From NCBI GenBank assembly GCA_945877575.1, contig CAMDUE010000012.1, forward strand, positions 1-64,000: a DNA stretch of 64,000 bases, written 5' to 3'. Under the pieces are notes generated by a model that made no database searches, was not told where the DNA came from, and worked only from the letters and a program-made list of their open reading frames with translations. The translations under genes were made by a program, and so were the position numbers. Source of the DNA: Chitinophaga pinensis. GTDB taxonomy: Bacteria > Bacteroidota > Bacteroidia > NS11-12g > UBA955. Positions 42,451 through 58,156 of the stretch are shown here, piece after piece; positions within the stretch are counted from its first letter, which is position 1; every line of letters begins with the position of its first letter.

Positions 42451-43377
42451 TTATTTTTTTTGAACTACCACCGTTTGAATCCCTAGCGGAAGAACCTTTT
42501 CTAAGGCAAACAATGGAAAAGTGAGCCCCTTTAGGAGGGCCAAATTCAAGAAGTGACCTTCAAAATTTGCGTTCCAGAGATAATTTTTCTTCTCAGCTCT
42601 TCCGAGCCACCACAAAATAAAGGGATCTAGGGTACCGTATTTATGATGATCTAAAATGGTCCAATGTGACGTTGAAAAAAGCGTGCTCCATGATTTAAAA
42701 CTGAACAAATTGATGTGTCGTGGAGTATGCCAACCTTGCCAGTGATTTTTCTGGATTCTGGCCAAAAGCCCTTGATACATGGGTACCTCAATAATGACCA
42801 GTCCGCCGGGTTTCAACAATTCTAAGCATTTTTCTACGGTTTTCTGGGGATGATAATCGTGCTCCAAATAGTGCCAAGCGGTAATGACATCATATTGCTC
42901 TGTTGGCTGGTGTTGGGTCCAATCGCCTTCGGTTAAATTCAGTTTCGAATACTTCGCATCACCCCAATGAGCCTGTTTGAAATCAACTCCAAAGCAATCA
43001 GAATCAACGCGTTGATCAAAATGATAAAGAAAATCGGGCTTCCCACAGCCTACATCGAGGATTTTTATTTTCTGGGGATGCTTTTTCGGGGACAGGAATT
43101 TAGATACCAAATCAACCCTTTTGATGTTGAGCGCGTCATCTTGTCGTTGAACGATTTTCGCGTATTTCCCCCATGCCTTTTCCCCTCTGTAAGGAAGGTA
43201 ATAATCGGGATAAAAATCGCCTAGCGCACTTTCATCTAGTGGATTTTCTAAAAAAACGGTCTCGCAATCATCACACTTCAGAAAGCAGTATTCCTTGCTT
43301 TTATCACCATCAACCATCAAAGGTCCGGTTTTAATGTAAAAGCTGTTGCTGGGCGAATTGCAGACAGAGCAGATCAA
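42451..43377 (-). CDS. SAM-dependent methyltransferase with N-terminal zinc ribbon
   Basis: This 308-residue protein starts with a CxxC pair (MICSVCNS) and a second pair (LKCDDCETVFL), a zinc ribbon. A class I methyltransferase core follows: ILDVGCGKPDFLYHF (SAM-binding glycine loop), DVITAWHYLEHDYHP and LLKPGGLVIIEVP. A C-terminal region of about 80 residues contains Trp-rich segments. It overlaps the upstream ATPase gene by 4 bases. Substrate unknown; similar proteins act on sugars and lipids. Confidence 0.88.
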   Translation of the reverse strand: MICSVCNSPSNSFYIKTGPLMVDGDKSKEYCFLKCDDCETVFLENPLDESALGDFYPDYYLPYRGEKAWGKYAKIVQRQDDALNIKRVDLVSKFLSPKKHPQKIKILDVGCGKPDFLYHFDQRVDSDCFGVDFKQAHWGDAKYSKLNLTEGDWTQHQPTEQYDVITAWHYLEHDYHPQKTVEKCLELLKPGGLVIIEVPMYQGLLARIQKNHWQGWHTPRHINLFSFKSWSTLFSTSHWTILDHHKYGTLDPFILWWLGRAEKKNYLWNANFEGHFLNLALLKGLTFPLFALEKVLPLGIQTVVVQKK

Positions 43378-44699
43378 CGTGTTATGGATTTAAAAAGTTG
43401 GCCAATGGCATACAGGGGAAGGGTTTTTATTTTCTCATACCCATCAAAATTCTCCAATGAGCAACGCACTCCAAAACTAGCTTGTTTTTCTCTTAGAAAC
43501 AGATGCAAACTTTTCATTTTTCCTAAACTTCCGGCTTTTACTTCAATTGGTACAATTTCAGCACCCATTTGCACTACATAATCTACTTCGGCTTGACTGC
43601 TTTTTTCTTCACGGTGCCAGTAATGTAAATTCATTTTCTCGTATCTCGAGGTATTTTTAATCAATTCCAAACCTACAAATAACTCGGCAATTGCTCCGTT
43701 GTTAATTACTTGATAATCATCATTGAGCAATAGTCCAGCAATATCCAATCCCAACATTCTCTGAAAAATACCTGTATCAAAGATTAGAAATTTTCGTTTC
43801 TTGGGATTAGACTCAGCACCCAGTGGTATGCCATTGCAAGAAGAATGCGTAACCGTATGCAGCAATCCAGCCAACTCTAACAAATCTAGGGCTTGTTTAA
43901 TTTGCACTGAATTCAAATCGCTCATGGCATTTGAATACTTGTACTTTGAACCCGTTTGCCTAACAACAGACTCAAAAACCGCTTGAATTCGAGATAACGG
44001 CACTCGTTTATTGTACTTTCTAAAATCAGATTGGATAGAAATCACCAAATCGTTTAAAACTCTTTGAACTTCTAGCAAATCATTCCCCTGTGCGTAGGCT
44101 CTAACCGCTTCAGGCATCCCCCCTATGATAAAATATTTTTTTAAATAATGATTGAGTTTAACATGAACAACTGAATTCAGAGGTTGGTTTTCTGAAGATG
44201 ATTTTATAAGATCTGACAATGCACCCTCATTCAATGCCATTAAAAATTCATTGAAAGCAAACGGATACATAAACAAGGACCTCACCCTTCCCACACCAAA
44301 TGAAGGAAGCTCAGCGAGAGCAAACTCCAACAAAGATCCCGCGGCAATGACATGTAGTTTGGGCTTCCTTTCATAAAAGTACCTTAAACTAGAAATTGCA
44401 GGTATAGAAACTTGAATCTCATCAAAAAAAATCAAAGTTTCACCTTCAATGATGGGTGTTTGTTTGATAACGGCAAGTTGAGTAATCAACTCCTCAACAG
44501 TAAGTGATTGTTCAAATAAGGATTTAAGACCATTCTCTTCTTCGAAGTTTACTTCCAAATAATACTTGAAATTTTGGGCAAAATTCTTAACTGCTGATGA
44601 CTTTCCAACCTGTCTCGCTCCTCTTATTAACAATGGCTTTCTACTTTCAGAATCTTTCCATTCTAACAAGTCTAAATCAACATCACGATAAAAATACAT
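43374..44699 (-). CDS. AAA-family ATPase with DUF4143 domain (third copy type)
   Basis: A 441-residue protein with Walker A IRGARQVGKSSAVKNF (residue about 25), Walker B TLIFFDEIQVSIP, sensor LHVIAAGSLLEFAL and the DUF4143 part AIAELFVGLELIKNT plus SSQAEVDYVVQMGAEIVPIE followed by VK. Family function is unknown. The start codon lies within a 10-base repeat and 20 bases after the first base of a consensus -7 box. Confidence 0.9.
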   Translation of the reverse strand: MYFYRDVDLDLLEWKDSESRKPLLIRGARQVGKSSAVKNFAQNFKYYLEVNFEEENGLKSLFEQSLTVEELITQLAVIKQTPIIEGETLIFFDEIQVSIPAISSLRYFYERKPKLHVIAAGSLLEFALAELPSFGVGRVRSLFMYPFAFNEFLMALNEGALSDLIKSSSENQPLNSVVHVKLNHYLKKYFIIGGMPEAVRAYAQGNDLLEVQRVLNDLVISIQSDFRKYNKRVPLSRIQAVFESVVRQTGSKYKYSNAMSDLNSVQIKQALDLLELAGLLHTVTHSSCNGIPLGAESNPKKRKFLIFDTGIFQRMLGLDIAGLLLNDDYQVINNGAIAELFVGLELIKNTSRYEKMNLHYWHREEKSSQAEVDYVVQMGAEIVPIEVKAGSLGKMKSLHLFLREKQASFGVRCSLENFDGYEKIKTLPLYAIGQLFKSITR

Positions 44700-47014: not shown

Positions 47015-50000
47015 TTATTCTTTAACACTTTTCTTCCCGAAATAGGCCCAAACAGATAGTAAAAATACTAATACTGAAGAAACATATACCCAAGTCGGTA
47101 TAGGCACCGGATCACCCGCGGCATAAGAGTGTAGTCCGGACAAATAATAATTCACTCCAAAATAGGTCATAATTATTGTGGCGAATCCAAAAATAGACGC
47201 TACGTTAAACGCATAGTTACCTCTTAGAAACGGAATGAATCGCATATGTAAGATCAATGCATATACCATGATCGAAACTAAAGCCCAAGTTTCCTTGGCA
47301 TCCCAGCCCCAATATCTACCCCATGACTCATTTGCCCATACTCCACCCAGATAAGTTCCAATGGATAGCATGATCAATCCTCCAGTAATGGTTCTTTCGC
47401 TTAATTGAGTCAACTGATTGATTTGGTGTAGAAATACTTCTTTTTGCCTTGCATTGAATGTAAAGGTTGCGAACAAAATCAAGTTTAGTAAGCCAATGAT
47501 TCCACCTAACATCAAGAACCCATAAGAACCTGCTTCCATAGAAACATGGATGGTCAACCAATATGATTTCAATACAGGCACCAAGGGTGTGATCTCTGGA
47601 TTCAGAAAGCTTAGATGGGCAATAAAGAGCATAATGCCAGACAATATGAAGGTAGAGGCCATTCCGCCTAGTGATTTTCGATTAAAAATGAGTCCTGCCA
47701 AAATAGATGTCCAAGCTATATAGATCATTGACTCATAGCCATTACTCCAAGGAGCCCTCTCTGATACATACCAACGAATGGCTAATCCAAGGGTATGAAA
47801 AACAAATGAACTACCCGCAAAAAACAATAATCCTTTTGATAAAACAACGCCTTTTTTTACCTTGTTGAAAATAGTCAAAAACATGACTATCAAGTACATA
47901 AACCCTATAAACAAGTTCAAAAAGCCAAGTCGAATAAATACTTGAGAATTATTTAAAACAATTTCAAGATATCGTTGATTTTCGTTGGGAATATATTCAG
48001 AAGCCGCAATGATCTGAAATTGATGAAGGTCATCAACTAAATCATTTGCCAATGCATAATCACCGTGTTCGATACCATTATGAATGGCTTCTTTGTATTT
48101 ATCAAAAAACAAATCCGAAATATCATGATTTTCTTGATGGTTGTGTGCTTGGTTGCCATGATTATGAGCAGATGCCCAGGTTCTATTGGAATCGCCTTCA
48201 ATTGGAATCCATTTGAACAACGTTCCTGAAAATAGCATATTTACTATGCTTACTCGTTCATCTAACGCTACTAGTGACTTATCAAAGGTTCCTTTATCTT
48301 TATCTGCTTTTCTTGAGGAATTTTGCACCTGTTCTTCCAGTAAATAATTTCCATTTTCATCAAAGAAGTCCCTAAAAGAAAGAAATTTAATATTTTTTTT
48401 ATTGAGTATACCTGCAAGCGAATCATCCGACCCCAACTTTATAATAGGCATGTCATACCATTGATCGTTAGCACCCCAAATTCCCAGTATTATTTGATCG
48501 GCAGTTGCATCTCCCAAATTTTCAGATCCATAAACTTTTCTTAAAATTTCGCGGCTGAATGTATGCATTGGCTTCATTCTACCTTGCACGTCTTGAACTA
48601 AAATTTCACTAACTTTATTTGCGTGCTCTAAGTTTGGTATAGCCAGTTTAGGTAATAATTCATTTTGAGCGTTAACCAGCGCTGTCCATAGAAAAAACAC
48701 AACGAACATTCCAGTATGGAGCGAACTTTTTTTCAACATGGAAAATCTTGTTTTCTTACTCAACAAAACCCAAACCATTCCTAAGGTCAGTAAAAAATAC
48801 CCCAAATAACTCACCCAAGTGCCCCAGAAATCATGATTTACGCTTAAATAGGTTCCTTTTTCATCTTGATCATAGGAAGACTGAAAAAACCGATATCCTC
48901 TGTGATCCAAAATATGATTCATATAAATATGATAATCAAATGATTCCAACCCATCAATCAATGTTACGAAACTGGAAAACGACGCAGGACTGTTTGTACC
49001 CGGATAACGTTCCAACTCAAACTTATCTAACTGTATTGAAAACGGCAATTGCTTTAGCACCGATCCATATTTCAACTCTACCGCAAGATCATCTAGTACA
49101 ATTCTGGTTCCAGGGCCTATTGATCCCTTAGATCCTTTGATGTGAATTACTTCTGTTTGACCTTTGTACTTCAATTGAATTTTTAGATCATTTATACTTT
49201 CATTGGTCAATTTCTTTGATTCCGATTTAAGGACTGTTTTTACTCCAGTTTTTAACTCAGGAACAACAAACTGTATATTTCCTAGTTGATATAAAGATCT
49301 TAACATCAAAGGCACCGTACCGGTATCTGCCGGAAAATCAACTTGTCTTTTTGTTGCCATTTCTAATGCAGACATGGGTTCGTCTGTACGAACAAACAAC
49401 TGTGCATTTTTTAGAAAAAAATGAATTTTACCTGATTCAAATTCAGGTTTAAAACTAAAGGGAACACCATTAATTAGCTTTTCTTCACCCAATTGTAAAT
49501 ACTCCTCAATTCTACCCCCATTGCCTGGAACAACAATTTTGATTGCTGAGTTGCCTGAATTATCTTCAACGGGCATTTCCTTACAATTAGGAATAAATTC
49601 CATGAGATCTAATTCTAATGTTTGATTGTTAATTCTATAGGATTGTTTAAACTGATTTTCACCCAAAGATGACAGAATAATCCTATGCTTAGATTCGTAA
49701 TTTTGACTTTTATCATCGGTTAACAGCAGCGATATATAAGATTCGGAACTTACAAACTGATTTTGTGTCTGTCCCTCCCTAATATTCATCATCCCTTCGT
49801 AACCAAAAAATCTAGTTAAAGCTGCACCTATAATGATGACAACAATGGCTATGTGTATAATCAATATTGAATACTGTTTTCTTTGCAATAGTTTATACTT
49901 CCACATTGAAAATAAAACGCTTAGACCAATTAGCGCAATAAGCAATTCGAACCAAACAGCTGTGTAAACTAATTTTTGGGCTGTTTCAGTACCGAAATCA

Positions 50001-50110
50001 TTTTCTATGAAAGTAGCAACAGCTATCGCAATTGTGAACAGCAAAACATACAATAAACCAGTTTTCTCATTGATGATTCGAAAAATGAGGTTTTTTAATC
50101 TTAATTTCAT
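47015..50110 (-). CDS. ccsBA: Fused ResB/CcsB-CcsA cytochrome c maturation protein
   Basis: At 1031 residues it has the full fused CcsBA layout. N-terminal helices (IAVATFIENDFGTETAQKLV, VVIIIGAALTRFFGYEG) and a periplasmic ResB domain come first, then a transmembrane core. The CcsA heme-handling signature WANESWGRYWGWDAKETW is near residue 930. System II maturation proteins move heme across the inner membrane and attach it to CxxCH. A His-rich stretch (AHNHGNQAHNHQENHD, about residue 650) is an unusual insertion. It is last in a tightly packed operon with two multiheme cytochromes that need it. Confidence 0.94.
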   Translation of the reverse strand: MKLRLKNLIFRIINEKTGLLYVLLFTIAIAVATFIENDFGTETAQKLVYTAVWFELLIALIGLSVLFSMWKYKLLQRKQYSILIIHIAIVVIIIGAALTRFFGYEGMMNIREGQTQNQFVSSESYISLLLTDDKSQNYESKHRIILSSLGENQFKQSYRINNQTLELDLMEFIPNCKEMPVEDNSGNSAIKIVVPGNGGRIEEYLQLGEEKLINGVPFSFKPEFESGKIHFFLKNAQLFVRTDEPMSALEMATKRQVDFPADTGTVPLMLRSLYQLGNIQFVVPELKTGVKTVLKSESKKLTNESINDLKIQLKYKGQTEVIHIKGSKGSIGPGTRIVLDDLAVELKYGSVLKQLPFSIQLDKFELERYPGTNSPASFSSFVTLIDGLESFDYHIYMNHILDHRGYRFFQSSYDQDEKGTYLSVNHDFWGTWVSYLGYFLLTLGMVWVLLSKKTRFSMLKKSSLHTGMFVVFFLWTALVNAQNELLPKLAIPNLEHANKVSEILVQDVQGRMKPMHTFSREILRKVYGSENLGDATADQIILGIWGANDQWYDMPIIKLGSDDSLAGILNKKNIKFLSFRDFFDENGNYLLEEQVQNSSRKADKDKGTFDKSLVALDERVSIVNMLFSGTLFKWIPIEGDSNRTWASAHNHGNQAHNHQENHDISDLFFDKYKEAIHNGIEHGDYALANDLVDDLHQFQIIAASEYIPNENQRYLEIVLNNSQVFIRLGFLNLFIGFMYLIVMFLTIFNKVKKGVVLSKGLLFFAGSSFVFHTLGLAIRWYVSERAPWSNGYESMIYIAWTSILAGLIFNRKSLGGMASTFILSGIMLFIAHLSFLNPEITPLVPVLKSYWLTIHVSMEAGSYGFLMLGGIIGLLNLILFATFTFNARQKEVFLHQINQLTQLSERTITGGLIMLSIGTYLGGVWANESWGRYWGWDAKETWALVSIMVYALILHMRFIPFLRGNYAFNVASIFGFATIIMTYFGVNYYLSGLHSYAAGDPVPIPTWVYVSSVLVFLLSVWAYFGKKSVKE

Positions 50111-50865
50111 TTTACCGTGGCATTTTCCATGATGATATCGTAACTATATCCTGCACCAAAATCCTTATTTAATGTTATAATACCTTTTAACGTTACAGTA
50201 TGTCCAACAGGGATATCTTGATTGGAAGTACACACAAAATCAAATTCGTTTTTAGTATCGTCTTGAAGATGTATCCAATTCCTGTCCATAATTCCTGGAT
50301 TTACTTTCACTACCCTAGCAGTAACTTCAACTGATTTATTTTTAAATCTGCTAGAATTTTCTACAATTTGTTTTAAGGGTGTTGATGTTTTGGGGATATT
50401 TACTTTCTCCTTAAAAGTAGCCACATTTTGATCTGAACCGGTATTTGAATGTACATGATTTTCATGATCAGACATTGGAAAAAGCTTTGAAACTAAAATA
50501 ATGCGATCAAAAGTACGGGCAAGTTCAGTGCTTGTATAATCGAGCTTTTCAATACCTTCATTGTATGCATAAGAAACATTTACTGAAAATTCTTCGCGCA
50601 TGGTAGCAATCCAATAAGCTTTTCCATTCTCTTCAACATTCAGGTATGAATACCGTTTGCCCGGTATATGTTTCAACACCTTTACTTCATGGTTGCTTCT
50701 GATAATACCATTTGAAGAACCATCTGATTGATTTTGTTCTCCGTTGTTATCATTAAAGACGCCCGTCTTCAAAGATTTGTCATTACTATCTACTGGCTCT
50801 AATTCAACGGGATTAGAACAGCTTAAAACAAATAACGCACTGATATATATAAAGTTATTTTTCAT
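50107..50865 (-). CDS. OB-fold-like lipoprotein with His-rich segment
   Basis: This 252-residue protein has a lipobox start (YISALFVLSCSNP). The C-terminal OB-type domain carries VEVTARVVKVNPGIMDRNWI, HLQDDTKNEFDFVCTS and VTLKGIITLNKDFGAGY. A His-rich stretch DHENHVHSNTGSD lies in the middle. OB-fold lipoproteins with such metal-binding stretches accompany cytochrome loci. It overlaps ccsBA by 4 bases and has a 1-base gap from the beta-barrel gene. Confidence 0.75.
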   Translation of the reverse strand: MKNNFIYISALFVLSCSNPVELEPVDSNDKSLKTGVFNDNNGEQNQSDGSSNGIIRSNHEVKVLKHIPGKRYSYLNVEENGKAYWIATMREEFSVNVSYAYNEGIEKLDYTSTELARTFDRIILVSKLFPMSDHENHVHSNTGSDQNVATFKEKVNIPKTSTPLKQIVENSSRFKNKSVEVTARVVKVNPGIMDRNWIHLQDDTKNEFDFVCTSNQDIPVGHTVTLKGIITLNKDFGAGYSYDIIMENATVK

Positions 50866-50866
50866 T

Positions 50867-52489
50867 TTAAAATCGTTTACTAAGGGTTAAGTAACAAAAT
50901 AAGTGTTGTTGTTGCTGCTGAATATTTTGCTCAATAAATGCATCTAAATCATACTGTTTTGCAATAGGAAAAGACCACTGTGCACCCACTGATGATTGAT
51001 TAAAAATACTGGAAATTTTTGAATTTCTAGAATATATATTGCTTCGGTAATAAATAGAAATGGTTGACTCTTTGTAGTAATCAGACCATCTAACAATCTG
51101 TTGGGCATTCTGCCAAGTTAAATAATCAGTTAAATTTAGCCTGTAACTCAATGTACTACCCTTCCAAATAAAATGATTGTGTGCAACATTAAGCCCGAGT
51201 AACATCATTTCCTTTCGGAAGTTAGAAGTTCGTAACGTGGATTGAATTCCCCAATTAAGATATCTATTTTGCTTGTAATTAACCCTAAACCTAAATCCTC
51301 GCTGAGCTTCGCGTTCAATTAAATCATCAATGGTCAATTGGTCATAAGTTTGCCAAAATATCCAAGGTGTTCTTGTATCATAAGATATAAAAGCGTTCCA
51401 TTTCGTATTGAACTTGTGCTGAATGGATAAGTATGTACTTTGAACACGCGCATTTTTGAATCCTTGAGTTATATCATTCTCCAATAGAAAAAATGCATAG
51501 GTATTTTGATTGAATGCACTGGATTGGAATAGTAGCAAATTTCTGTCTAAATCCGCACCCTTATATTGATTCATCCAACCCATATTAACATCCCATTTAA
51601 TTGGCAACTCATGGTTCTGGTACTTTGCAGAAAGACCTAAAACGGGCATTTGGGTTGAGAACAAATGAGTTCTATATTCTGGAGAAAATCCGCAAACGCC
51701 TTCAATACGAATTTGATGAATATTCAATCCCAGTTTTAATGCATCTAAAGCTCCAATACTGCTCAATCCATTCTGAAAACCTCGTCCAATCTTGAGATCA
51801 AGATGAGAACTTAAATTCGTAGAAAATTCTGCTTGGTTCAAATAAATCCTGCCCCATTTAGGTGCTTCAGTAGTTTGAAATTGGGAATAAAAGTGCTGAT
51901 AATTACCACTTAAATGCAATCCTGAATTTCTAAAAGAATCTTTTTTCACTCCTTTTACATTGAACCTCCCAAATTGCTGTGTGTAGGCTCTATTAGATTC
52001 AGAGTTAAATGTTTGATTATAGCGTGTTGAAACACTGGTGTAACCATGCCAATTCCATTTATTCGCAATGGCTTTTGGAGCAACTGTGGTAGTTTTTAAT
52101 GTATCAATGAACCTGATCTTCTGAATTCTGTGATTTGCAGAACTAAGATTAATTTGACTATCCGCTTGAAGCTTTGTATTCACTACTTTAGAAACACCGT
52201 AAAACGAATCACCCAATATTATTGTCTCATCACTGATTCTTGAATTTATGGTTGATGTAGATGACTTTTTCTGTAATACAAGTAATGGTTTTTGGTTACT
52301 CGTTTTAAACAAGGTATCTCCTATGTTTAAATTTTTAGTATTTTCAAAACGCACATACACATTTTCAGCCGAAATATATGTAACTACACCCTTGTCATTA
52401 CTTTGCGCCCAAGCCGATCTAATTGCTAAAATTGCAATGAACAAAAGAATCTTTTTTGAATATTTACCGATCCGAAAATTACTAATCAT
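50867..52489 (-). CDS. Predicted outer-membrane beta-barrel of the multiheme operon
   Basis: This 540-residue protein has a signal peptide (KILLFIAILAIRSAWAQ), an N-terminal small domain of about 80 residues (VVTYISAENVYVRFENTKNL) and about 400 residues of alternating beta-strand pattern. The final phenylalanine (LTLSKRF) fits the barrel-assembly signal. Its position between two periplasmic/outer multiheme cytochromes and the maturation genes suggests a conduit barrel. The start at ATG 52489 overlaps the upstream stop (ATGA); a longer reading adds 7 residues. It has no close resemblance that I can name to MtrB. Confidence 0.75.
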   Translation of the reverse strand: MISNFRIGKYSKKILLFIAILAIRSAWAQSNDKGVVTYISAENVYVRFENTKNLNIGDTLFKTSNQKPLLVLQKKSSTSTINSRISDETIILGDSFYGVSKVVNTKLQADSQINLSSANHRIQKIRFIDTLKTTTVAPKAIANKWNWHGYTSVSTRYNQTFNSESNRAYTQQFGRFNVKGVKKDSFRNSGLHLSGNYQHFYSQFQTTEAPKWGRIYLNQAEFSTNLSSHLDLKIGRGFQNGLSSIGALDALKLGLNIHQIRIEGVCGFSPEYRTHLFSTQMPVLGLSAKYQNHELPIKWDVNMGWMNQYKGADLDRNLLLFQSSAFNQNTYAFFLLENDITQGFKNARVQSTYLSIQHKFNTKWNAFISYDTRTPWIFWQTYDQLTIDDLIEREAQRGFRFRVNYKQNRYLNWGIQSTLRTSNFRKEMMLLGLNVAHNHFIWKGSTLSYRLNLTDYLTWQNAQQIVRWSDYYKESTISIYYRSNIYSRNSKISSIFNQSSVGAQWSFPIAKQYDLDAFIEQNIQQQQQHLFCYLTLSKRF

Positions 52490-53523
52490 TCCGATCCTTT
52501 GGGATGACATTCAAAACATGCCTTACTCTGAAAAATATACCCCTTTACATCGTCGTGTTCATCTGCTAAATCAGCTTGATCATTATGTTCATGACAGTCT
52601 ACACAGCTAAACAAAGCGAAATTGCTACTATTGGTATGACAATCTGTGCATTTGTTCCAGGCCCCCTTGTGATTTCCAGAATAAATTGGAAAAAAGTCCG
52701 CGTCATGATCATCATATTTAGCTGGGGCCCATCCAGACTGCGTGGTATGGCATTTTGTACAATCAGTGGGAAAACCTAATTGTTTGTGATTGGGATTTGA
52801 TGCAGAATTGTAATCGGCTTGATGACAACTGATACACTCTGAACTGATTTGATTATACGGTTTATTTTGGTGACATTGAACACATGTCAATCCATCATGT
52901 CCTTGAGTTAACGGAAAAAAATAATGGAAGAAATCAGATTTCCATGCAGGTGATTGAGGGGCATGACACTCTATACAATTAGTACCAAATCCTGCTTGAA
53001 CATGATTGGGATTTTGGGTATTTACATACTCAGAATTATGACAGCTAATACATTGCCCAGTCAACCGATTCCAAACCAAGGTGTTGCTTGACTTGTGGCA
53101 ATCTATACAAGACACGGTAACATGTGCACCTTCCAACAAAAATCCATTTTCAGAGTGTATATCGGCAATATTTTTCACAAACCAATTTTCGGAGTTATGA
53201 CATCTTTTACAGTCATTTCCCACAGACATTTGATGCACATCTGTATGACAATCAACACATTGAGACCCTAATCCTTTAAAACTCAAATCTTGGTGACATC
53301 TTTTACACTCTAATTTCTGGTGTTGTCCCTCTAATTCAAATCCCGTTTCCTTAGAGTGATTGAACAGCTTGTTTTCCGATGTGATTTTCCAACTTCCAGA
53401 ATTATGGCATTTATTACAATCTATTTTTAGATCTTTTCCATGAGGATTGTCTTGAGCATTTAATCCCAAGAACATAAAACTAAAAACGAGGGCTATTAAT
53501 TTGCTTTGTGACAATCTATACAT
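52486..53523 (-). CDS. Multiheme cytochrome c with 13 CxxCH motifs
   Basis: This 345-residue protein has a signal peptide (LIALVFSFMFLGLNAQ) and thirteen CxxCH heme-attachment motifs, from CNKCH near the N-terminus to CFECH near the C-terminus. They fall into repeats such as GFELEGQHQKLECKRCHQD, GFLLEGAHVTVSCIDCHK and GFGTNCIECHAPQSPAW. Each motif normally binds one c-type heme covalently, giving a periplasmic heme wire. Overlaps the upstream gene by 28 bases and the downstream gene by 4. Confidence 0.92.
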   Translation of the reverse strand: MYRLSQSKLIALVFSFMFLGLNAQDNPHGKDLKIDCNKCHNSGSWKITSENKLFNHSKETGFELEGQHQKLECKRCHQDLSFKGLGSQCVDCHTDVHQMSVGNDCKRCHNSENWFVKNIADIHSENGFLLEGAHVTVSCIDCHKSSNTLVWNRLTGQCISCHNSEYVNTQNPNHVQAGFGTNCIECHAPQSPAWKSDFFHYFFPLTQGHDGLTCVQCHQNKPYNQISSECISCHQADYNSASNPNHKQLGFPTDCTKCHTTQSGWAPAKYDDHDADFFPIYSGNHKGAWNKCTDCHTNSSNFALFSCVDCHEHNDQADLADEHDDVKGYIFQSKACFECHPKGSE

Positions 53524-55103
53524 TCAAAGGGTTTAATTTTATATAAAACAATTTTATCTGGCAAATATTGTGACATGGGTTTATGGCAGGAATTACAATC
53601 TACATCTTTATGTTTGCCTTCCAATGGAAATTTGGTTTTTTGATGATTAAAGTTAGGCACAGGCCAACCTTTATTGGTTGAGTGACAGTCTAAACAATTG
53701 TTTTCTTGAAATTGCCCCATATGTATGTCTTCATGACATTGAACACAATCTAAATTGGGCAATTTGAATTTTTGGATCCAATTTTCGGAAGCATCTTTTT
53801 CTTCCGAAAAATGGCATTTTCGGCACGAGACTGATTGATGTTCGCCCTCAAGTTTGAAATTGGTCGTATTGTGATCAAACTTTATATCTGACCATTGATC
53901 GGTATTATGGCAATTGCTGCAAGAATTATCTCGATAGAAACTAGTATCTAAATAGTTTTTATGAATGTCCTTATGGCAAGAAACGCATGATTTATCCTGA
54001 AACTTAAACTGCAATTTATTATTGCTATTGGGACGGTGGCAACTAATGCAAGAAACCGCTTCATGAGAACCTGTTAAAGGATATGAAGATTTTTGATGTT
54101 CATTAAAATCATAACCACTGAAAGTGAAGTTTTGATTCAGATCATGACAGTCTTTACAGTCCCTAACCACACCGTTGGCTTGCTTAAATTCACCTTCGTG
54201 ATAATCTTTATGGCAATCATTGCACCTTGCAAAGGGTATGTTTTTTGCAAATCCTTGAGTATGGCATTTTTTACAATCTACACCTATATGCTTACCCTCC
54301 AAAGGATATCCGGTTTGATTGTGATCAAATGTTTCTTGATTCTTGAGGGATTTCCATGTCTGTTCGCTATGACATTTCTTACAATCCAAGCCAAATTTAT
54401 TTTCATGTGGATCTTTGTGACAATCAACACATTTTGAAAACGCAATACCACGAAAAATTTGAAATTTCTTGTTTTCACGTTGCGTAATTTTATGACAATC
54501 CACACATGAAACCTTTACATGCGCTCCATTCAACTTGAATTTTGATTGTTTATTGTGATTGAAATTGGGCGCAGTTTTAAAAGTACTCATGGAATGACAT
54601 TCCAAACAATTTGCACTCAACGTTTTTTGATGGTAATCATCATGACAACTTAAGCACTGAGTGGATAACCCCAAAAAAGTTTTCTTGTTTGCCTTGAGTG
54701 AAGCAATTTGTACATTTTTAGCTTTGTGGCACTCTCGGCAACTCACTTTAGCGTGCGCCTCCTCTAGATTGTATCCTGTTAATTTGTGATCAAACTTCTT
54801 TTCGTCCAAATGAATAGCATCAAATTTTCTACCATGGTGCTCCGAATGACAAGTAATACAAGATTTACCTTTCATTTGCGAACTGACGTGAAACCCTTTT
54901 TTTTGCTTAATTCTTTGATTCAATTCTTTGTGGCAAGACAGACATTTTGATTCTTGAATTTTTGAACCTACGCTATGACATTGGGTGCAATTTTTAAGGC
55001 CCTCTAGTTCTTTATGAGCTTCAGATAAGTCTCCTGGTGAAAACTGCCCTTCTACTTTTGTAAAACACAAAACTAAAATCAATATGATTAGGTATTTCCT
55101 CAA
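53496..55103 (-). CDS. Multiheme cytochrome c with 20 CxxCH motifs
   Basis: This 535-residue protein has a signal peptide (YLIILILVLCFTKVEG) and twenty CxxCH motifs, beginning NCTQCH and ending ECIDCH. A repeating unit, F.LEG.H..V.C..CH, then C..CH.D.H, recurs through the whole length (KLNGAHVKVSCVDCHK, PLEGKHIGVDCKKCHTQG, KLEGEHQSVSCRKCHFSE, PLEGKHKDVDCNSCHKPM). The repeat unit probably arose by internal duplication. It could bind about twenty hemes, more than typical decaheme conduits. Its start overlaps the flavoprotein stop (ATGA). Confidence 0.92.
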   Translation of the reverse strand: MRKYLIILILVLCFTKVEGQFSPGDLSEAHKELEGLKNCTQCHSVGSKIQESKCLSCHKELNQRIKQKKGFHVSSQMKGKSCITCHSEHHGRKFDAIHLDEKKFDHKLTGYNLEEAHAKVSCRECHKAKNVQIASLKANKKTFLGLSTQCLSCHDDYHQKTLSANCLECHSMSTFKTAPNFNHNKQSKFKLNGAHVKVSCVDCHKITQRENKKFQIFRGIAFSKCVDCHKDPHENKFGLDCKKCHSEQTWKSLKNQETFDHNQTGYPLEGKHIGVDCKKCHTQGFAKNIPFARCNDCHKDYHEGEFKQANGVVRDCKDCHDLNQNFTFSGYDFNEHQKSSYPLTGSHEAVSCISCHRPNSNNKLQFKFQDKSCVSCHKDIHKNYLDTSFYRDNSCSNCHNTDQWSDIKFDHNTTNFKLEGEHQSVSCRKCHFSEEKDASENWIQKFKLPNLDCVQCHEDIHMGQFQENNCLDCHSTNKGWPVPNFNHQKTKFPLEGKHKDVDCNSCHKPMSQYLPDKIVLYKIKPFECIDCHKAN

Positions 55104-56440
55104 TGTGATTTAATGATTTTATTCTTGGCAATTTCCATATTCACGCCCGCATTCTTCAAAAATTCAGTAGGTAACTCTCCGCCTGCAAATATGTATACTT
55201 TGTCTATGCTTTCCATGGTTTCTTGAATGCCATTGCATTCTATTTTCAAGGAATTTTTAGATATCTCTTTAAGTTCTGAATTGAAAATTACCTTTATCTG
55301 ATTGGCATTAATTGCTGCTTTAATTTTCTCTTCATTTAATGACTTGATTCTTGCAAACTCACTTTTCCTGTAAGATAAGAAAACTTCATTCTGGTCTTTC
55401 AACATTAATGCAGCCTCTATAGCTGAATCACCTCCCCCAACTACCATAATTCTCTCATTTTTAATTTCATCTGCTTCAATCAATCGATAAGCAACGTGCG
55501 TGGAAATTTCGCCAGGAATATTGAGTTTTCGGGGAGAGCCACGTCTACCAATTGCTAGTAAAACCGACTTACTGAAGATCTTTTCACCGCCTTGTAAAAT
55601 GCTAACAAAGAAATCATTCTCTTTATTGATAGAATCAACCTTAGTGTTTTCTTGGATAATCAACTCGTATTTTTCTCTGATTTCCATCCAAAAATCCAAC
55701 AATTCCTCTTTGCTAGTATATTCCATTTTCACTTCACCATAAAGGGGTAATTGCACCGGATGTGTCATAACTATTTTACCCCGAGGATAGGTAAAAACAG
55801 TACCTCCTAAACTGTCTTGTTCAAAAACGATGTAGTTCAAATTCAGTTCTTTTGCTCTCAGCGCGGCACCAATTCCAGCTGGGCCAGATCCAACAATGAC
55901 TAAATCATAGTGTTGAAAATCGAGGGATTTAGACTCGGAAGAGCTGTCAATTTTAGCTTTAATTCCATTCACCGCTGCAATTCCTTGTTCAATGGAATTC
56001 TTAATCAATCCCATTCCACCAAGTTCTCCGGCAACAAAAATACCCTCAACATTGGTCTCATAATCAGGTTTAATGTGCGGTAATTCTACGCCGCGCTTTT
56101 CTGTACCAATACGTAAGCTTATTGCATCAACCGGACAAGCCAAAAAACAAGCACCATGTCCAATACAACTCGTAGTGTTAATCAAAGTTCCACGACCACT
56201 CATTATTCCGAGTACATCTTTTTCGGGACAAGCGTTTACACAAGCGCCGCTACCTATGCATTTGTGCGGGTCAATATAAGGGTACAATGATAAAGGCTCA
56301 TATCTACCAGTTTTTTGCGCTGTTTCAACTTTCAATTGAGTTTGATGAGACAGTTGTTGAAATTTTCTCAAATAGCGAACAAAAACAACAACGATAAAAA
56401 TACCGGTTATTGCATAGGTAGCTAATTCGAAAATATCCAT
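55100..56440 (-). CDS. Ferredoxin / thioredoxin-reductase-like flavoprotein
   Basis: A 446-residue protein with an N-terminal membrane helix (YAITGIFIVVVFVRYLRKF) and two [4Fe-4S] ferredoxin motifs (CIGSGACVNACPEKDV, CIGHGACFLACPVDAI). A pyridine-nucleotide flavin oxidoreductase of the thioredoxin-reductase type follows: VIVGSGPAGIGAALRAKE, SVLLAIGRRGSP and MVVGGGDSAIEAALML. It lacks the CxxC redox pair of true TrxB. The segment GIFVAGELGGMGLIKNSIEQ lies between the halves. It would pass electrons from NAD(P)H through Fe-S clusters to the multiheme proteins encoded next. Confidence 0.88.
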   Translation of the reverse strand: MDIFELATYAITGIFIVVVFVRYLRKFQQLSHQTQLKVETAQKTGRYEPLSLYPYIDPHKCIGSGACVNACPEKDVLGIMSGRGTLINTTSCIGHGACFLACPVDAISLRIGTEKRGVELPHIKPDYETNVEGIFVAGELGGMGLIKNSIEQGIAAVNGIKAKIDSSSESKSLDFQHYDLVIVGSGPAGIGAALRAKELNLNYIVFEQDSLGGTVFTYPRGKIVMTHPVQLPLYGEVKMEYTSKEELLDFWMEIREKYELIIQENTKVDSINKENDFFVSILQGGEKIFSKSVLLAIGRRGSPRKLNIPGEISTHVAYRLIEADEIKNERIMVVGGGDSAIEAALMLKDQNEVFLSYRKSEFARIKSLNEEKIKAAINANQIKVIFNSELKEISKNSLKIECNGIQETMESIDKVYIFAGGELPTEFLKNAGVNMEIAKNKIIKSH

Positions 56441-56449
56441 ATTAAATTG

Positions 56450-57169
56450 CTAAAATATCCATGTGTAACCCATTAGCAAAGTAACTATTACATGAATGAT
56501 TACAATTACTAACATGATTAATGCAAATGGTTTGTGAAATATATGCCAGTACGAAAACCAACGTTGCATTTTATCTAACTGAGCGAGCTGTCTCTGCAAA
56601 CTTTTTAATTTTCGCAAGTTCTTCTTTACGTCTTTCTTTTGATGATTGTTTGTTTCATTGGAACCGAATTCATCGGCAATGGAATGAATTTGAGCTTCAA
56701 TCTCCCGCATGCCCAATGCCTTACCGTCTAAACTTCTCGGAATCTGAACATAAATATAGCGGCCCACGACACCACTCAAGACCACCAAAACCATACTCCA
56801 AAAACCTACAGAAACTATACCACCAAACTTAAAAGTGGTATGAAATAGGATCAAAATTGGGCCTATCGTACACAAGAAAATATGAAATTCAAGCAAATAT
56901 TTTAAGCGTACAAACTTCTCAAATCTCAACGTTTTTTTCGCGTAGATATATCCAAAAACACCAATTGAAATGATGATTGTACCAATTATTCCATATCCAT
57001 GCCCAAGCGTGCCTGATGCGTTCAATGATTTATAATCAGGGTGGTAAAATCTTAGTTCTAATGGGGTTTGGTAAAATTGATACCCGTCAATCGACAATTT
57101 AATCAAAAGCCACAATGTAAAAGCTATCATGAAAGAGCGAAAAATGAAAATTCTAACAGACAGACTCAT
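56450..57169 (-). CDS. Heme-b-like membrane protein, first gene of the multiheme operon
   Basis: This 239-residue protein has five or six helices (FIFRSFMIAFTLWLLIKL, IIGTIIISIGVFGYIYA, VGFWSMVLVVLSGVVGRYIY and others). Histidines are placed as axial ligands (LGHGYG, FHIFLCTIGPILILFHT, WHIFHKPFALIMLVIVIIHV), similar to cytochrome b561/ferric-reductase-like proteins. A cytoplasmic coiled-coil lies in the middle. It is likely the quinol-side or membrane entry of electrons. Ten bases separate it from the flavoprotein gene. Confidence 0.8.
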   Translation of the reverse strand: MSLSVRIFIFRSFMIAFTLWLLIKLSIDGYQFYQTPLELRFYHPDYKSLNASGTLGHGYGIIGTIIISIGVFGYIYAKKTLRFEKFVRLKYLLEFHIFLCTIGPILILFHTTFKFGGIVSVGFWSMVLVVLSGVVGRYIYVQIPRSLDGKALGMREIEAQIHSIADEFGSNETNNHQKKDVKKNLRKLKSLQRQLAQLDKMQRWFSYWHIFHKPFALIMLVIVIIHVIVTLLMGYTWIF

Positions 57170-57247: not shown

Positions 57248-57499
57248 CTAAATTCGCGCCATCCTTACCTTCAAAATCACCGCAGACAACACGGTTAATA
57301 TTCCAATAAGGTAGAGCGCCCAATCTATGCCAAAATAGTCGGCTGTAACTCCGGAAATCATGGCTCCAAATGCATAGCCCAAATCGCGCCACAACCTAAA
57401 TATACCTATACTTTCTGCACGTTGGAGCGGATGTGCTACCTGCGCTATAGTTGATAAAAACGTGGGATAAACCAACGCCGTGCCCAGTCCAAGAACCAC
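57248..57499 (-). pseudogene. C-terminal fragment of an MFS transporter
   Basis: Eighty-three codons (LGLGTALVYPTFLSTIAQVA, AESIGIFRLWRDLGYAFGAM, GIDWALYLIGILTVLSAVIL) match the last three or four helices of a major facilitator protein. A TAG lies immediately upstream and no other part of a transporter is present. It is a remnant of a gene of about 400 codons. Confidence 0.8.
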
Positions 57500-57526
57500 C
57501 TATAACCCAGCGAATTCATAAAATCA

Positions 57527-58156
57527 TCAATCTAGAATCAAAATTTTAGTTGTTCCATCAACTCTTGAAATATATTGACCTGAGGGTAATTCTGGCAATT
57601 TTACATTTATTATTAAACCGTCAAAAAAGGAAGAAAAGACCTTACAACCCATAAAGTCAAATAGTTCTACATGATGTTTCCTGATATTGTCTTTAAATTC
57701 CAAAGTAAATTCACCGGTTGTTGGGTTGGGGAATACCTCAAACAATTGTTAGGAAGGTTTGTTATGCTTCGCCGAATTTCCGAAGATAAATTTACAAGTG
57801 TCGGTTCTATTCTCGTTTAAGTAAATAAAGGTAACGTTTAAAGGTTCGCAATAATTTGCCTTTATTAATTCTACCGGAAAATCTTGTGTGGTTTTTCCAA
57901 TCTGTCCAAAATAGAACATTTGTCCTTTTGCGATGGTATCTCCCATACAATCTGTCATCACTGAGATATAGGGATAACCAATCATTTGGGTTGTATTGGC
58001 TTGAAATTCAATTCCCATTTGCATGGTGTTCTTATTTATTGAATCCGCAATAAAATGTTTGATCTTGAAGTTATCGCAAGTAATGGTTTGAGCATTGAGA
58101 TTACCAAAGTGCAAAACAAAAGCCCTTGAAAGTTTAATAAAATTATTCAAGTTCAT
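57527..58156 (-). pseudogene. Secreted protein with T9SS type A domain, interrupted by in-frame TAA
   Basis: The first 135 codons (signal-like start, NLNAQTITCDNFKIKHFIAD, mostly beta sequence with cysteines) stop at TAA 57751-57749. The same frame continues without interruption as QLFEVFPNPTTGEFTLEF ... YISRVDGTTKILILD, a type A T9SS sorting domain, to 57527. A single substitution would restore a 209-residue protein. As read, the cargo is not targeted to T9SS. Readthrough cannot be excluded. Confidence 0.8.

Follow-up and report, generated by a model that had tools for sequence, protein, structure and literature searches.

The window, a 64,000-nucleotide stretch of Bacteroidota DNA, contains seven minus-strand genes (47015–57169) that probably encode a self-contained trans-envelope electron conduit, fed by NAD(P)H and equipped with an expandable wire. 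One of its two multiheme cytochromes changes length across relatives only in blocks of three hemes, which suggests a molecular wire of evolvable length. Trans-envelope electron conduits have been found mainly in Proteobacteria, Desulfuromonadota and related groups, and Bacteroidota are known mostly as polymer degraders; to our knowledge, such conduits have been little described in this phylum. We found no published description of the operon, subscription journals and preprints lying outside the search.

An open reading frame check placed all seven genes where an earlier note on this DNA had called them (Table 1). The successive junctions are a gap of 9 bases, overlaps of 4, 28 and 25 bases, a gap of 1 base and an overlap of 4 bases. 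The overlaps of 28 and 25 bases hinge on the choice of start codon. A recount of CxxCH motifs returned exactly the 20 and 13 previously read in the two cytochromes, and no other reading frame of the window contains more than one. Promoter and terminator scans gave nothing above chance.

Table 1. Coordinates of the cassette genes and associated features in the window.
Feature	Position	Strand	Description and basis
Diheme cytochrome b-like membrane protein (cytb)	56450..57169	-	239 aa, DUF4405-like; 31-homologue alignment, hydrophobic segments
Membrane-anchored flavoprotein	55100..56440	-	446 aa; Fer4 + Pyr_redox_3, motif survey, TM segment
First cytochrome	53496..55103	-	20 CxxCH; Sec-type signal, without lipobox
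Second cytochrome	52486..53523	-	13 CxxCH: 7-heme head, one 3-heme module, 3-heme tail
Three-heme module of second cytochrome (n = 1)	52672..52905, bounds approximate	-	Spacing 31,16,25
Outer-membrane barrel protein	50867..52510	-	AlphaFold2 model; no Pfam family
Lipoprotein	50107..50865	-	252 aa; Pfam GW; lipobox LSCS
Fused ResB-CcsA (CcsB) cytochrome c maturation protein	47015..50110	-	PF01578, PF05140, TIGR03144
MFS transporter remnant	57251..57520	-	Last ~84 aa; directly upstream of cassette; intact in sister species

The second cytochrome carries between 10 and 70 hemes among relatives, and all 68 counts equal 1 modulo 3. An alignment of 15 sequences shows a 7-heme head, n modules of three hemes and ~72 aa each, and a 3-heme tail, with the module spacing of 31,16,25 lying between the head and tail patterns. 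Locus L098 obeys the rule with 38 CxxCH, one CxxxCH and one CxxxxCH motif, giving 40, and the two exceptions, L067 and L086, are genes split over several frames. Mapped on the flavoprotein tree, the second cytochrome gained or lost hemes on at least 41 occasions, compared with 5 for the first. A single clean 648-bp indel, corresponding to three modules, separates the second-cytochrome genes of two Arenibacter genomes, Arenibacter echinorum (25 hemes) and Arenibacter sp. F20364 (16 hemes), with the other operon proteins compared being 94–98% identical. The Arenibacter modules are at most 85% identical to each other in DNA, making assembly collapse an unlikely cause of this length difference; it may contribute in individual short-read genomes.

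The first cytochrome, in turn, has 20 or 23 hemes in all relatives counted. The hypervariable heme number of the second would fit a capacity trait, in which the hemes would store electrons or buffer the redox state of the periplasm, as an outer-membrane capacitor with the barrel as an ordinary porin or anchor; capacitor roles have been proposed for giant Saprospiraceae cytochromes (PMC11495043). We give this reading a low probability, as storage does not need a barrel co-inherited with the cytochromes over the phylum, and two cytochromes of which one alone varies suggest a geometric role.

Such a role, that of a wire in a conduit, also accords with the histidine supply. Across 43 first-cytochrome sequences there are 20 conserved distal histidines for 20 hemes, and every cytochrome has at least 1.0 extra histidine per heme. 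With one distal histidine per heme, no open catalytic site is apparent; as read from the sequence, this second histidine for each heme of the first cytochrome is the mark of a wire, not an enzyme. Pfam and NCBIfam place the operon cytochromes in Cytochrome_C7/CIII, and solved-structure searches returned weak c3/c7-type matches, such as GSU1996 (3ov0), HmcA (1z1n) and 6i5b. The second cytochrome has, by eye, a Sec-type signal, and its gene adjoins that of the barrel. The AlphaFold2 model of its 13-heme form, built without hemes, reached a pLDDT of 40.6, too low for use. Neither cytochrome contains a lipobox or a T9SS export domain in its sequence, and surface exposure thus hinges on the barrel. 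A point against a conduit is that the operon encodes no surface cytochrome.

For the barrel protein, AlphaFold2 (mean pLDDT 82.9) predicts an SH3-like beta domain (aa 36–108), a disordered linker and a large 22-strand barrel (aa 153–546), in agreement with its earlier description as a beta-barrel. A profile search for the MtrB/PioB family (PF11854) found no match in the window barrel, in 40 relatives or elsewhere in the whole genome, placing the barrel outside that family. Nor did it match any Pfam family; with no known non-conduit family recognized, the conduit logic survives. Foldseek returned, among the matches listed, only generic barrels at TM ~0.4, which permits no family assignment. At the top stood the PapC/FimD ushers, through which folded subunits pass. 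A solved-structure search yielded nothing usable. The barrel is not homologous to any proven conduit barrel and has fewer strands than MtrB, points that also count against a conduit.

The fold matches listed by Foldseek include the substrate porins AlgE and Occ, as would be expected if a soluble or periplasmic acceptor entered via the barrel and was reduced by the cytochromes. We regard a reductase of this kind as very improbable, since no open-coordination heme is predicted and the neighbourhood lacks a conserved catalytic subunit. The lipoprotein, the only one of the operon, has the lipobox LSCS, a GW/SH3-like segment (Pfam GW), a C-terminal domain described earlier as a putative OB fold, and no CxxCH motif. 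The maturation protein, CcsBA, has ResB and CcsA/CcsB domains above cut-off, with PF05140 at 77.5 bits, PF01578 at 134.2 bits and TIGR03144 at 187.9 bits, just over its cut-off of 187.6.

At the inner membrane, cytb contains H96/H110 and H212/H226, plus H209, all invariant in the 31 aligned homologues (31/31). The histidines of each pair are 14 residues apart, as would be expected of axial ligands in two helices of a DUF4405/b561-like diheme cytochrome b, a pattern compatible with the label "b-type-like". The DUF4405 profile matches 10 of the 31 family members, the window protein not among them, and a solved-structure search with cytb gave no usable match. The flavoprotein combines an N-terminal TM helix, two Fe-S motifs and an FAD/NAD(P) domain (Pfam Fer4 and Pyr_redox_3). 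It had been described as 2x[4Fe-4S]: two cluster motifs are indeed present, Cxx(S64)xxCxxxCP and Cxx(H95)xxCxxxCP, but each retains three of the four canonical cysteines. H95 is kept in 97 of 97 relatives, a count partly biased for the GTDB loci, where the scan pattern included that histidine; all 17 loci retrieved by profile carry it as well.

The description of the flavoprotein as TrxR-like needs correcting. In a motif survey, none of the 97 homologues has a CxxC after the Fe-S part, and the flavoprotein is therefore not a disulfide reductase. It has the FAD/NAD(P) fold in common with YpdA and thioredoxin reductase (PDB 7a76), but differs from them in lacking the redox CxxC and in having a membrane anchor and a fused Fe-S domain. 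Membership of the TrxR/YpdA group was rejected, the TIGR04018 score being 145.8 bits against a cut-off of 339.9.

The genes stay together across the phylum, and the conduit logic thereby also passes the second refuting condition named in the earlier note, which was right about Bacteroidota. Nearly all of 80 GTDB loci keep the order cytb, flavoprotein, two multiheme cytochromes and barrel, and a second order, cytb-c20-cN-barrel-flavo, has unchanged parts. Among 395 genomes, 35 have both barrel and flavoprotein, 3 and 1 have only one of the two, and 356 have neither (Fisher p 1.9e-45). The seven-gene set occurs in ~10% of the Bacteroidota genomes sampled, carriers including cultured Maribacter, Arenibacter, Yeosuana, Aequorivita, Lutibacter and Emticicia. 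Across neighbourhoods, we found no conserved terminal reductase, catalytic subunit or other partner beside the operon; a two-component system is its sole recurrent neighbour.

In the window genome, the cassette adjoins a truncated MFS transporter gene whose counterpart in a sister species is whole, a pattern that fits lateral arrival. Our searches of the host genome turned up just one further multiheme protein of the operon type, an alternative-complex-III-like subunit. The three-heme length steps, the reduced Fe-S cysteine sets and the likely lateral arrival go beyond the earlier note. The host has two heme-copper oxidases and is probably an aerobe, for which the gain from a conduit is not obvious. 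These oxidases could be the main electron sink if the conduit ran inward, with Fe(II), a reduced mineral or a partner cell outside supplying electrons that reach NAD(P)+ through the flavoprotein, helped by the membrane potential. All parts are reversible in principle, and the tight linkage of flavoprotein and cytb, found together in 79 of 79 readable loci, would suit this direction too; reduction of NAD(P)+ would, however, be uphill from most extracellular donors, and we consider inward flow unlikely.

In the outward conduit that we favour, NAD(P)H or reduced ferredoxin would donate electrons to the FAD/Fe-S flavoprotein at the cytoplasmic face, and these would cross the inner membrane via the diheme b protein to a 20-heme periplasmic wire. 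MtrA spans 80 Å with 10 hemes, or ~8 Å per heme (PMC12203936). At this spacing, the first cytochrome would measure ~160 Å with 20 hemes and 184 Å with 23, near the periplasm width of ~200 Å (PMC7096707). The second cytochrome would take electrons from the first, and its constant 10-heme part (7 head and 3 tail), of about MtrA length, would thread through the 22-strand barrel and so span the outer membrane. Extra three-heme modules would lengthen the wire, most likely outside the cell, and in-frame exchange between tandem modules would let its length evolve. The lipoprotein and the SH3-like domain of the barrel protein would form a periplasmic collar, and CcsBA would load the hemes.

For the trans-envelope conduit claimed in the earlier note, the gene content, co-conservation and 22-strand model stand as observed, as do the bis-His supply, diheme pattern, three-heme steps and module indel; the donor, outward electron flow, seating of the cytochrome in the barrel, extracellular acceptor and site of extension we infer. 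More tentatively, the cassette may represent an undescribed conduit family in Bacteroidota, fed by NAD(P)H rather than quinol, which pairs a fixed, periplasm-matched cytochrome with a barrel-threaded, expandable nanowire whose reach would vary from ~0 to 48 nm by module recombination. If true, a conduit in ~10% of sampled Bacteroidota would bring extracellular electron transfer to the phylum. The natural series, which spans 10 to 70 hemes within a single framework, makes rate and reach directly testable against wire length, and the Arenibacter pair, three modules apart in an otherwise little changed operon, provides a natural length contrast.

Among known systems, the GSU1996-type nanowires (triheme c7 repeats, TIGR04257) are likewise wires of three-heme units, occurring in multiples of three (12 and 27 hemes). 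Here, a 7-heme head of constant size precedes the module series and a 3-heme tail follows it, and the gene belongs to an operon that also encodes a barrel. Membership of TIGR04257 was rejected: the best score was 33.3 bits (L094), with 15.0 for the 20-heme protein of the window, against a cut-off of 40.

MtrCAB, PioAB and MtoAB resemble the cassette in combining a multiheme wire with a large outer-membrane barrel in one operon and in their bis-His hemes, and the heme number of MtrA equals that of the constant part of the second cytochrome. As noted earlier, no MtrA/B/C homologue is recognized at curated thresholds; TIGR03508 (MtrA/DmsE), whose cut-off is 192.2 bits, scored 22.4 and 50.8 bits in the window and no more than 63.9 in relatives. 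Here, the barrel is not PF11854 and its 22 modelled strands make it narrower than MtrB, predicted at 28 (PMC7096707). The operon also lacks the MtrC-like surface multiheme lipoprotein of MtrCAB, has its own CcsBA and a second cytochrome varying by three hemes, and replaces the CymA/CbcL/ImcH-type quinol oxidase entry of known conduits with a flavoprotein and diheme b protein.

Giant Saprospiraceae cytochromes, compared by description only, belong to the same phylum, have very many heme motifs and have been proposed to act in extracellular electron transfer; in the available part of that work, motifs are counted per protein, without an operon, barrel or three-heme rule (PMC11495043). The Burkholderiales porin-cytochrome MHCs, whose barrels are likened by description only, belong to another phylum and vary, in the portion of the paper at hand, among three genomes with no fixed step; as here, the larger MHC beside the porin gene varies by insertion and deletion of CxxCH domains (PMC7399161).

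All seven open reading frames of the proposed multiheme cytochrome operon were confirmed by an ORF check, with the coordinates, minus strand and tight packing given in the earlier note, and its counts of 20 and 13 CxxCH motifs in the two cytochromes proved exact; elsewhere in the 64 kb window, every reading frame contains one such motif at most. Pfam and NCBIfam support Fer4 and Pyr_redox_3 domains in the flavoprotein, Cytochrome_C7/CIII in the cytochromes, ResB and CcsA/CcsB in the maturation protein (CcsBA) and a GW/SH3-like domain in the lipoprotein, with no confident Pfam match for the barrel or the membrane protein (cytb).

Locations of the operon genes, flanking features and related loci
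Feature	Location	Strand	Remark
ATPase	43374-44699	-	DUF4143-like in appearance
Barrel	50867-52510	-	
Second cytochrome	52486-53523	-	
First cytochrome	53496-55103	-	
Flavoprotein	55100-56440	-	Fe-S motifs at residues 61-102
cytb	56450-57169	-	
MFS transporter remnant	about 57251-57520	-	last ~84 residues; directly upstream of operon; intact in L122
T9SS-tailed protein gene	57527-58156	-	stop-interrupted; intact in L122
Operon-free flank, sister species G011	L122		CorA, T9SS-tailed protein, intact MFS transporter, further gene, thioredoxin-like protein
Tandem second cytochromes	L012:5828-8993 (same as L021)		
Six-CxxCH protein	L110 (G000:C1, around 287000)		
Barrel fragment	G256:C56:46016-46396		
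Extra barrel copies	G375:C26:36458-37930; G493:C11:338-1933		
Response regulator/TPR loci	L018, L023, L041, L042, L046, L053, L055, L059, L066 and others		

The second cytochrome follows a three-heme length rule. Its relatives carry 10, 13, 16, 19, 22, 25, 28, 31, 34, 37, 40, 43, 46, 55, 58, 61, 64 or 70 motifs, equal to 1 mod 3 in 68 of 68 complete cases, because a seven-heme head (motif spacing 36,16,16,34,19,25) is followed by n three-heme modules (about 31,16,25; 70-80 residues each) and a three-heme tail (about 37,15,29); n = 1 in the window. The ten-heme form of a distant group differs in head spacing, so that the 7+3 description is exact for the main group only. In the first cytochrome the motif number is either 20 or 23 across relatives, and on the flavoprotein tree (67 loci) its heme number changed 5 times, that of the second at least 41 times. 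In one operon (L012) the variable wire is duplicated as a whole gene, giving two tandem second cytochromes with about 28 hemes and 13 hemes.

Arenibacter echinorum has 25 hemes in this protein versus 16 in Arenibacter sp. F20364, with 94-98% identity across the other operon proteins compared. The two genes differ by one 648-bp alignment gap, equal to three 216 bp modules, whose ends both lie at equivalent module points; DNA identity among the modules is at most 85%. The 70- and 61-heme genes contain tandemly repeated stretches, of 225 bp and 441 bp. Module-to-module exchange is the simplest cause of length change.

Both cytochromes carry a Sec-type signal by eye. The first has 20 heme histidines, and exactly 20 others reach 85% conservation or more among 43 sequences; all the cytochromes have at least one extra histidine per heme. 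This supply suggests bis-His wires that lack a catalytic heme. The six-CxxCH protein of L110, the genome's only other c7-type match, appears to resemble an alternative complex III subunit.

In cytb, H96/H110, H212/H226 and H209 are invariant (31 of 31 aligned sequences, ten of them matching DUF4405); the pairs, spaced by 14 in each of two helices, would fit the geometry typical of a stacked pair of b hemes. The flavoprotein begins with a single N-terminal helix, followed by two Fe-S motifs (97 sequences). The second cysteine of the first motif is mostly S, T or G, a loss confined to the main group and absent from the distant one; that of the second, CxxHxxCxxxCP, is histidine in 97/97 homologues. 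Three-cysteine motifs are able to hold 3Fe or 4Fe clusters. Given these replacements and the lack of a redox CxxC in all 97 sequences, the earlier labels need qualifying: for "two [4Fe-4S]" the motifs stand without full cysteine sets, and for "TrxR" the Pyr_redox_3 domain stands without the CxxC.

The genes are also conserved together in related genomes, and the operon thereby passes the second of the two tests that the earlier note had named as able to refute its reading. The flavoprotein profile matched 344 GTDB species-genome relatives; of these, the top-scoring 80 loci come almost entirely from Bacteroidota, one being titled Ignavibacteria. The cytb gene accompanies the flavoprotein in 79 of 79 loci, and most sufficiently long contigs preserve the order cytb-flavoprotein-first cytochrome-second cytochrome-barrel-lipoprotein, with CcsBA following it, preceding it or lying reversed; in a more distant group the order is cytb-c20-cN-barrel-flavoprotein. 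Among 395 Bacteroidota genomes, 38 (31 of 171 genera) have the flavoprotein, 36 the barrel and 35 both (Fisher p = 1.9e-45, kinship not corrected for). In a set of 117 relatives, the genomes with the barrel and those with the flavoprotein are the same four, including the window's.

The 130-aa barrel fragment in G256, which lacks the flavoprotein, is possibly a relic of a lost operon. G375 and G493 each have a second barrel copy, one of which has two in-frame stops. In 9-12 loci the operon has a response regulator together with a TPR protein as neighbours, at most ~10 kb from the flavoprotein; the TPR protein may be the regulator's sensor kinase, and the recurrent pair suggests redox or substrate control.

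In the sister species G011 the flanking genes recur without the operon (assembly 74% complete, contig unbroken across the operon-free site). The MFS remnant and broken T9SS-tailed gene likely mark an insertion/decay site at the operon's upstream edge, and in same-genus G009 the operon instead adjoins an RmuC-like gene, named by eye. This pattern fits lateral arrival with local decay, although loss and rearrangement in other species may instead account for it.

MtrA spans 80 Å with 10 hemes (PMC12203936), and the periplasm is about 200 Å wide (PMC7096707). At 8 Å per heme, the first cytochrome would reach 160-184 Å, nearly spanning the periplasm. For the second cytochrome the shortest form would measure about 80 Å, long enough to cross the outer membrane within the barrel. 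The 70-heme form would extend about 560 Å, which cannot stand upright in the periplasm, and the extra modules are therefore placed outside the cell. Since the operon encodes a flavoprotein, electrons would enter through it from NAD(P)H or ferredoxin; outward flow is assumed by analogy, as the commoner direction in known systems.

The barrel is modelled with 22 strands, preceded by an SH3-like domain and a disordered linker (pLDDT 82.9), and the structure matches listed for it are all generic barrels. We found no description of the operon or its three-heme rule in the open literature. Judged against curated profiles, the barrel falls outside MtrB/PioB, and the cytochromes score well under the cut-off for MtrA/DmsE and under that for triheme nanowires. 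"Grafting and pruning" of heme modules was reportedly described by Soares et al. in 2022. Among known systems, giant cytochromes of Saprospiraceae are reported from activated sludge (PMC11495043), and a variable heme-domain number from three Burkholderiales conduits (PMC7399161).
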